Positions 808-42,214 of a stretch of DNA of 42,214 nt are shown in pieces; within the stretch, counting starts at the first letter, position 1, and every line of letters starts with the position of its first letter. The DNA lies in IMG/VR virus record IMGVR_UViG_3300044837_000064, positions 1 through 42,214 of that record; one strand, 5' to 3'. The notes below the pieces were generated by a model that saw nothing but the letters and a program-made list of their open reading frames with translations, had not been told where the DNA came from and searched no databases. The translations under genes and the position numbers were made by a program. Source of the stretch: a virus.

Positions 808-956
808 GCGCTCCCCCGATCCTGCGAAGGCAGTGAAAGTACCGCGTCTGCGATGCGATCAACCAACATCGGGGATGTGTAGCCGTTGTGGCTAACCATT
901 ATGCCGGTGATGGTTCGGACCAAGTTATCTTTCATGCCTATCCGGTTATCACCCAT
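804..956 (-). CDS. 3' half of a small phage gene split by an insertion
   Basis: A protein of 50 aa if it starts at the ATG within the left inverted repeat of the inserted element (MGDNRIGM), or 43 aa from the second ATG at 935 (MKDNLVRT). From KDN onward it continues, in frame, the protein truncated at 1533..1772. Removing 924..1574 rebuilds one 105-aa ORF. The element thus supplies a start codon to the orphaned half. Its stop overlaps the next gene (ATGA at 804-807). No domain is recognised. Confidence 0.75.
   Translation of the reverse strand: MGDNRIGMKDNLVRTITGIMVSHNGYTSPMLVDRIADAVLSLPSQDRGSA
925..932. repeat. Target-site duplication, left copy
   Basis: TTATCTTT immediately outside the left 26-bp inverted repeat. 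The identical octamer in the same orientation follows the right inverted repeat at 1576-1583. Direct repeats outside terminal inverted repeats are the footprint of transposition. Confidence 0.8.
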
Positions 957-1191
957 GATCGCTAACCCTAGACCTGTGTGCAGCGAAAAGACGGCGGCTA
1001 TACTTAGACCTGTCGCCGTAGAAGTCGTATCCCCACGGCACGTCTTCCGAGTGCACATAGTCGGGACCGCCGAACCAGTAGCGAACGCGGCGAAACGGGT
1101 CCTTGTCCGGCCAGCAACACGCCTCGCCACAATGGTACGTCCAGACCAAACCTAAGACAAAGACGGCGGCAATCACGACGGCCTCACCCAT
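949..1191 (-). CDS. Cargo gene of the insertion: small membrane-anchored protein
   Basis: A protein of 80 aa. Residues 2-15 (GEAVVIAAVFVLGLVW) are a hydrophobic N-terminal anchor or signal sequence, followed by an aromatic, charged tail with three cysteines (HCGEACC). It lies wholly inside the inserted element. The last codons and stop (SDHG-TGA) are provided by the left inverted repeat. The ATG sits 3 bases after the TAG of the other cargo gene, so the two are coupled. Its role is unknown. Confidence 0.65.
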   Translation of the reverse strand: MGEAVVIAAVFVLGLVWTYHCGEACCWPDKDPFRRVRYWFGGPDYVHSEDVPWGYDFYGDRSKYSRRLFAAHRSRVSDHG

Positions 1192-1193
1192 AC

Positions 1194-1532
1194 CTATCTC
1201 CCGCAGCCGCATGTGGGCCAGCCGCAAGCCAGCCGGTGGCGCTTGCCGTCACAGACCACATCTTCTTTCTCTTGGCCGTAGGGCCGCCCTAGCATCGACT
1301 CCATGGGGTCCACGTAGGGCTTGACCTCTTCTGGCTTGGCAGCCTTCCGCAGGGCCGTTTCTGTGCGGCTGAGAAGGTCCATGAGTCCGTAGTTCCTGCC
1401 GGTATCATGCAGGCTGACGCGGCTGATCTCGTTGGCCAACTCATGAAGCTCAGTCTGCGCCGCGTCTCTCTGCGGCTCCATCATCGCCTGCATGTAGTCA
1501 TCTCCAATATTGGTCGAGAAGTTGGCGCTCAT
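1194..1532 (-). CDS. Cargo gene of the insertion: hypothetical protein
   Basis: A protein of 112 aa starting MSANFSTNIG, with an alternative start at MQAMMEPQ. The ATG is directly preceded by the TAA that ends the interrupted upstream gene, and AAGGGA 9 bp upstream serves as ribosome site, so host-operon mRNA can be read straight through. The middle is helical and charged; the C-terminus has a Cys-rich tail (CDGKRHRLACGWPTCGCG) that may bind metal. It is entirely within the element. No family is recognised. Confidence 0.65.
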   Translation of the reverse strand: MSANFSTNIGDDYMQAMMEPQRDAAQTELHELANEISRVSLHDTGRNYGLMDLLSRTETALRKAAKPEEVKPYVDPMESMLGRPYGQEKEDVVCDGKRHRLACGWPTCGCGR

Positions 1533-1772
1533 TTATCTATCCCTTGATGTCATGGGTGATAACCGGATAGGCATGTTATCTTTGGTTGCAGACGCGTCGG
1601 GGTTCGAACCTTTCGCACCCAGGGCTGACCGGGCGATGGCCCGCATAGAAACCGCCGCAGTAGCATCCATCTTCGTCTTTAAGGCAATCATTCGCAGCGC
1701 AAATTCGAGATCGACGATGCGATCATGATAGGCGATATTCTGCTGCATTAGCGGGTCGTCTAGGTTCAACAT
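1533..1772 (-). CDS. 5' half of a small phage gene split by an insertion
   Basis: A protein of 79 aa. Residues 1-66 (MLNLDDPLMQ...SATKDN) are the native N-terminal part; the last 13 residues (MPIRLSPMTSRDR) are read from the right inverted repeat and element edge. Without the insertion the frame continues into LVRTITGIM... of 804..956 to make 105 aa. The native part is mostly helical (DRIVDLEFALRMIALKTKM). Whether the truncated product still works cannot be told from the sequence. Confidence 0.75.
   Translation of the reverse strand: MLNLDDPLMQQNIAYHDRIVDLEFALRMIALKTKMDATAAVSMRAIARSALGAKGSNPDASATKDNMPIRLSPMTSRDR
1576..1583. repeat. Target-site duplication, right copy
   Basis: TTATCTTT directly after the right inverted repeat, identical to 925-932 and in the same orientation. 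Confidence 0.8.
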
Positions 1773-41330: not shown

Positions 41331-41502
41331 TGCCAGACTCCGTTGGTGAGGACACAGCAAGTGCCCGTTCGGCTTCTTTTCTCCAAACGTCGATCACTCG
41401 GATTCCGCCATCGGCGGCCAGATCCTCAGGATCGTTGTCGATCAGGCACCGCACCAAATCTTCAAGCGTTTTGATGTAGCGAATTTGCTGGGCAGTTGTC
41501 AT
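41323..41502 (-). CDS. 59-aa hypothetical protein
   Basis: MTTAQQIRYIKTLEDLVRCL...ADGGIRVIDVWRKEAERALA. Starts in the methyltransferase stop (ATGA) and overlaps the next gene by 8 bp, so it is part of the chain. Helical and soluble; unknown function. Confidence 0.6.
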   Translation of the reverse strand: MTTAQQIRYIKTLEDLVRCLIDNDPEDLAADGGIRVIDVWRKEAERALAVSSPTESGNG

Positions 41503-42188
41503 GCTGCGACTCCGGCCAGTTCTGCCTCAAAGCGCCTCGCTGCGATCTCGCAATAGCGTTCCTCAAACTCGCATCCGACAGCCGCGCGCCCCTCGAGGGC
41601 CGCCGCAATCAAGGTGCTGCCGCTACCGGCAAACGGGTCATAAATGATCTCGCCCATGACGCTGCTGCTTTCGATAAGCTGGCGAAGGATGTCCACGGGC
41701 TTTTCGGTGGGATGGTGCTTCACGCGACCGCTGATGGCCCTCATACTTCGCACAACGCTGCCTTTGCGGAGGCGGGCCGATAGATTGCCGTAGCCCTTCT
41801 CGCGGTTGGCTTTGCTCAATTCGCTGGTGGCAAAGTTGATGTTTTCGTGCTGCGGACCCCACGGCTGGGTAAGGTCGCCCATACCGATAACACCTTTGTC
41901 CCAGATGATTTCCGTGAAGTCACAAAGGTTGAGACTGGTCAGGGGCAGGCGGGTTCCGAAGATATAGACGTGCCGTCCTCGCCGCAGAGACTTCAGGACG
42001 TGAGCGAGCCTTGCAGTCGTGCCCGCTATGTCGTCGTCGCCCTTGATCGGTCCCCAGAGGTCGGATTTCCCGCTCTTGAACTCCTGCCCATATGGTGGGT
42101 CCGTGACAAGTAGATCGCAATCAACCTCGATCTCGGCACAATCGCCGTGGTACAGGGCTACACCTTCGCGAGAATAATAGGGCTTCAT
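41499..42188 (-). CDS. DNA methyltransferase (N6-adenine/N4-cytosine type)
   Basis: A protein of 229 aa. Catalytic motif IV TDPPYG (29-34) comes before the AdoMet-binding motif I DPFAGSGST (184-192), the order of beta-class enzymes; HPTEKP (159-164) precedes motif I as usual. No target-recognition insert of any size is present, so the site is short. No restriction partner is adjacent, so it is an orphan, likely protecting phage DNA or mimicking host modification. The start overlaps the Lar-like gene. A deleted copy of this gene is at 52..165. Confidence 0.93.
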   Translation of the reverse strand: MKPYYSREGVALYHGDCAEIEVDCDLLVTDPPYGQEFKSGKSDLWGPIKGDDDIAGTTARLAHVLKSLRRGRHVYIFGTRLPLTSLNLCDFTEIIWDKGVIGMGDLTQPWGPQHENINFATSELSKANREKGYGNLSARLRKGSVVRSMRAISGRVKHHPTEKPVDILRQLIESSSVMGEIIYDPFAGSGSTLIAAALEGRAAVGCEFEERYCEIAARRFEAELAGVAA

Positions 42189-42214
42189 TTGCCGCCCTCG
42201 CAGTGACCCACAGC
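42185..42214 (-). CDS. Partial: last codons of the Lar-like gene
   Basis: The final 30 bases repeat 162-191, the 3' end of the Lar-like protein gene described at 162..365. They are the redundant end of the circular molecule and not a second gene. Confidence 0.9.
   Translation of the reverse strand, partial: AVGHCEGGK

Follow-up and report, generated by a model that had tools for sequence, protein, structure and literature searches.

The question raised by this locus is what kind of DNA has been inserted into a small gene of a soil phage, and by what means. The window, i.e., the whole 42,214-nt contig IMGVR_UViG_3300044837_000064, contains a 643-bp element at positions 933 to 1575, whose terminal arms are 26 nt each, 100% complementary, and separated by 591 nt. 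The 3' (cargo-stop) arm occupies 933 to 958 on the plus strand and the 5' (cargo-start) arm 1550 to 1575 on the minus strand. Directly outside them lie the two copies of an 8-bp target site duplication, TTATCTTT, at 925 to 932 and 1576 to 1583, to which no strand is assigned. A first-pass annotation of the window had described perfect inverted ends with an 8-bp duplication, and both the coordinates and the full complementarity were confirmed. The 26-mer is confined to its two sites in the contig, with none expected in shuffled sequences when up to three mismatches are allowed. The earlier claim of a real insertion also held, as precise removal of the element, joining 804-924 to 1576-1772, gives back an unbroken 105-aa frame (MLNLDD...DRGSA, then a stop). 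The upper half of this minus-strand gene lies at 1584 to 1772, with its start ATG at 1772, and the lower half at 804 to 924.

Inside the element are two small genes on the operon strand, as had been annotated. Cargo gene 1 (1194 to 1532, minus strand) encodes a 112-aa protein (MSANFSTN..) with a Cys/His-rich C-terminus, and cargo gene 2 (949 to 1191, minus strand) an 80-aa protein (MGEAVVIAAV..) with a hydrophobic N-terminus. Neither retrieved a match in Pfam or PHROGs, and cargo 1, when modelled alone by AlphaFold, reached a mean pLDDT of 63, too low for a fold search. The earlier description of stops and restarts at the two ends was borne out. At the cargo-start end, a stop/RBS/start module (AAGGGATAGATAA followed by ATG; 1530 to 1549, minus strand) places the TAA of the interrupted frame immediately 5' of the cargo 1 start, with a stop-start junction of ..AAGGGATAGATAAATG; the interrupted gene continues through N-MPIRLSPMTSRDR-TAA, after which the ATG of cargo 1 follows at once. 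At the opposite end, the TGA of cargo 2 falls within the left arm and is overlapped by an ATG at 954 to 956, whose frame (MGDNRIGM-KDNLVRT..) is that of the lower half and from which the latter can restart.

The first-pass annotation recognized no IS family with these ends. This proved incorrect: they belong to the IS1595 family, as indicated by full-length viral copies carrying PF12762 and by the end core of ISAcr1. Scanning viral contigs for exact copies of the 26-mer turned up four other contigs. In L003, L005, and L006, the 26-mer is the right terminus (26/26) of full-length elements that encode an IS1595-family transposase of 347-348 aa (for L005, PF12762 at 3.6e-35 and PF12760 at 4.9e-13). 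The annotation had proposed looking for full-length elements with a transposase and the same ends; full-length elements with a transposase and this right end are present in viral contigs, and two of them are bounded by 8-bp duplications of their own (ATTGTAAA in L006 and AGCTATTC in L003). ISAcr1, a plasmid member of the family (65.6% at the amino acid level), has ends CTTGCCTATCCGGTT.. and a duplication GAATCAGC. The window element resembles such ISAcr1-like elements, found as full IS on Acidiphilium plasmids and as viral copies in L003, L006, L052, and L142, in the core end TGCCTATCCGGTT and in the 8-bp duplication, and it has the identical 26-bp right end and transposase C-terminal codons of the viral copies. 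In contrast to these IS, it has no transposase, holds two unrelated small genes, and has two ends of the right-end type (ATCACCC), whereas the left end of the full-length IS in L005 and L006 is GACACCC.

The transposase has nevertheless left a trace. The left 39 bp of the element (933 to 971, plus strand) are identical to the 3' end of the L003 transposase gene plus the right terminal repeat and encode, on the minus strand, ..RVSDHG and a stop, which is why cargo 2 ends in these residues; its last six codons are a transposase remnant. Likewise, the second ORF of a cassette carrying a Mom-like gene terminates in ..GSDHG and a stop. The retained tail and the IS1595 ends therefore lead us to read the cassette as an IS1595 derivative without its transposase. 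No PF12762 transposase was detected in the element or in the whole 42-kb contig, in agreement with the earlier annotation, and the window element is therefore not itself an IS. We consider it very probable that this is a non-autonomous IS1595-family cargo cassette, i.e., a mobile insertion cassette, in a Bradyrhizobium-type phage, moved in trans and with its cargo expressed by reinitiation. The movement in trans, by a cognate transposase, is suggested by the identity of the ends, and the reinitiation by the anatomy of window-type cassettes. Against this reading weigh the two right-type ends of the window element and the fact that neither an empty-site relative of this locus nor a second copy of its cargo was found.

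Neither the 26-mer nor a 21-mer had an exact match in 85k species genomes; set against the several matches in viral contigs, this hints, for this end subtype alone, at an association with phages. Further matches from a 16-mer scan (L011-L022) were single sites with no partner and were dismissed as chance, as was, from its context, the one 18-bp match of the consensus cassette end among isolate phages, in a T4-like Klebsiella phage (OM971648).

The phage itself is related to the Bradyrhizobium phage ppBjS10J-1, with a major capsid protein 94.7% identical and much of the structural region at 75-79% DNA identity. The insertion region is not similar to that phage, and therefore no empty-site relative of the locus was obtained. 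Cargo 1 and the fused 105-aa protein retrieved no relatives in viral_contigs or INPHARED phages, and cargo 2 and the flanking proteins of 149 and 68 aa none in viral_contigs. The whole element, searched by blastn against plasmids, yielded chance matches only. The annotation had asked for relatives with an uninterrupted 105-aa ORF; for this exact locus, these searches found neither a relative with the empty site nor one with the filled site. The lack of an uninterrupted form would fit phage-native genes in their ancestral order, with the repeats arriving later, and so would the base composition of the cargo, given that cargo 1 has a coding-like GC content by codon position (0.60/0.44/0.77) and that GC3 in both the 112-aa and the 80-aa ORF is phage-like. 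Such a history is, however, very improbable in view of the exact duplication and the in-frame restoration, the ends of IS1595 type, and the transposase tail with which cargo 2 finishes.

A phage-hitchhiking gene cassette had been suspected, and cassettes of this kind do recur in viral contigs. Searching with a degenerate end pattern yielded 83 loci in viral contigs, in which convergent ends less than 4 kb apart were paired; because the loci were gathered by their ends, the counts that follow are not frequencies. Exact 8-bp repeats bound 48 of the 79 convergent end pairs, compared with 0-2 when the right octamer is shifted by -6 to +6 (12 other offsets), and the sequence signature of the cassettes is a pair of TGCYTATCCGGTT ends with 8-bp repeats. 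Deduplication left 49 distinct sequences, of which three are plasmid reference IS and about nine are composite or carry a transposase. Approximately 35 elements are cassettes that lack a transposase; most are 0.25-1.3 kb long, with one or a few accessory genes taking up the interior, and many contigs hold two or three of them. PF12762 is missing from 33 of 43 cassette-bearing records. A phrog_2 terminase shares the contig in 12 of 38 cases, a figure that covers one terminase family only, in mostly metagenomic contigs of which many are fragments.

Several cassettes of the set are, judging from sequence comparisons, demonstrably mobile. Three of them (G014, G036, and G039) share one cargo, a nucleoside deoxyribosyltransferase (81-85% nt; phrog_12607, 2e-46 for the L092 copy). 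Their homology sets in at base one or four of the element and persists to its final base, their flanks are unrelated, and each has its own duplication (GTCTAGAC, ATTGAATC, and CATGCTTG). The record G018 offers two paralogous regions with reciprocal empty sites. In G037 (L154:13831-15114), a methyltransferase cassette interrupts a transposase gene of the IS1595 family, and its flanks, once joined, give an unbroken alignment to intact transposases; here, a cargo carrier has broken a potential helper transposase gene.

These observations bear on two further explanations. Perfect inverted repeats around a short segment, in an operon, can be the sites of an invertase, and the 26-bp repeats might on this account be regulatory or recombinase sites, i.e., a conserved operator or an invertible segment, the former having been named by the annotation as an outcome that would overturn its reading. 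We reject this idea as scarcely credible: 8-bp direct repeats lie outside the ends and vary between elements, the same end occurs on full-length, transposase-bearing IS1595 elements, and there are empty sites. The other explanation deserves more weight. The element could be a decayed autonomous IS1595 from which an internal deletion took the transposase, leaving two ORFs as leftover passenger genes or filler, in which case such elements would be dead ends and there would be no phage-specific system. The transposase 3' end still held in the left 39 bp speaks for this, as do the full-length phage copies in L006, L052, and L142, which have small genes upstream of the transposase. Yet the transposase-less forms have intact ends, exact duplications, and intact ORFs, the same cargo occurs at different sites, and the elements are compact, with cargo filling most of them. 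On balance, we find mere decay unlikely, and internal deletion of IS1595 may be the history of many cassettes rather than a rival to them.

The cargo of the cassettes includes a Mom-like DNA modification protein (PF25680, 3.9e-30), N6/N4 DNA methyltransferases (2.8e-43 and 1.3e-25), another DNA methyltransferase (phrog_799, 1.1e-55), an RNA ligase (8.3e-20), a SpoU methylase (1.3e-15), and an ADP-ribosyltransferase-like protein (8.5e-12), together with MazG-like pyrophosphohydrolases, a PAPS reductase, an HNH endonuclease, and unassigned proteins. A blastn search of the Mom cassette against phages found similarity in the Mom gene only and none in the cassette ends. The layout seen in the window element is repeated across the set: in 31 of the 33 cassettes with a callable start, the cargo begins 24-50 nt from the outer edge, commonly with a purine-rich RBS before the start, and a stop codon stands directly 5' of the start codon in 12 of 33, against about 1.5 expected for a random codon (3/64). 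Among 21 decided cases, the cargo is co-directional with the neighbouring genes in 16 and opposed in 5. This arrangement suggests that translation of the cargo is coupled to the upstream gene.

A mechanism for the cargo cassette can be proposed along these lines. An IS1595 transposase encoded by the host or by a co-resident phage, prophage, or plasmid would act in trans on the cassette ends, and the cassette would go into AT-rich 8-bp targets. The cargo-start end brings its own stop, ribosome-binding site, and start. A co-directional landing in a phage operon would allow the cargo to be translated at once from the operon mRNA by termination-reinitiation, and the cargo would need no promoter of its own. 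Phages would then retain cassettes with useful cargo, such as anti-restriction DNA modification and enzymes of nucleotide and RNA metabolism.

The first-pass annotation had suggested a new class of element, which was right in part. The kind is known: mobile insertion cassettes have been described for IS231 in Bacillus cereus (cited in PMC3281130 and PMC3129680), with IS-type ends around non-transposase genes and dependence on a helper IS. The window element has known-IS ends flanking non-transposase genes, and its family is mobile; unlike the IS231 cassettes, it has IS1595 ends, lies in a phage genome, carries a stop/RBS/start module in its end, and belongs to a set with mostly phage accessory cargo. 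Within the same family, IS1595 elements with passenger genes are known as "transporter IS" (Siguier et al. 2009, cited in PMC3129680), but those are IS copies with extra genes, and most elements here have no transposase. MITEs, which have been reported in viruses (Nadal-Molero 2024 preprint, cited in PMC11389934), are likewise short, transposase-less, and helper-dependent with IS ends; they have no protein-coding genes (PMC11389934), whereas here the interior is nearly all coding, with the 112-aa and 80-aa ORFs in the window element and Pfam/PHROG enzymes in its relatives. Integron gene cassettes offer an analogy, as small promoterless gene units that can be slotted into a place where they are expressed, but neither an attC site nor an integrase was noticed in window-type elements, which have DDE-type ends and target duplications; perfect terminal inverted repeats with an 8-bp duplication point to DDE transposition and not to attC recombination. 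What remains of the novelty claim is a phage-borne set with a stop/RBS/start module and phage accessory cargo: the open-access literature searched nowhere describes cargo cassettes of the IS1595 type from phages, the viral-MITE preprint falling outside that scope.

The cassettes suggest a route by which phages obtain ready-to-use genes. Whether they form a dedicated phage gene-exchange system, promoterless, translation-ready, moved in trans through co-infection or prophages, and spreading genes for anti-restriction modification and for nucleotide and RNA metabolism between unrelated phages, is in our judgement evenly poised. If so, they would represent the transposon equivalent of integron cassettes and offer a concrete way for phages to acquire "morons". 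To our knowledge, the uptake of single accessory genes by unrelated phages outside homologous recombination is largely unexplained; for acquisitions of this sort, the cassette set defines the boundaries exactly, adds target duplications and empty sites, and suggests a plausible means of expression. The acquired genes include ones expected to shield phage DNA from restriction (Mom and methyltransferases), and the cassette ends provide a sequence signature with which to find more.

Several loci deserve a separate mention. The near-identical contigs L111, L047/L086/L043, and L056 (records G045, G009, and G015) have 5-9 ends each, in nested and adjacent elements, with the same 8-bp duplication, TTAATCAT, used again and again, which may reflect an insertion hot spot or serial insertion beside earlier ends. 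L052:3600-5559 is a composite in which an IS1595 transposase with upstream cargo is followed by a stretch of about 420 bp; this closes with a cassette-start end, AAGGAATAGATAAATG, that barely differs from the one in the window element. At L105:3228-7205, a 3,978-bp element without PF12762 and with ends ..AGCACCCCCTGAAAGT encodes two large proteins of 536 and 546 aa that are paralogues of each other. At L010:1-62 (record G008), a viral contig terminates inside a cassette-start end, as though the assembly had broken at the element. In the window itself, positions 1-190 repeat the contig end (41512-41612 plus 42116-42213) minus about 504 bp inside a DNA methyltransferase gene (41499-42188), with the junction at a short common stretch of about 9 bp; this is either an overlap of the contig termini involving a deletion variant or an artefact of assembly.
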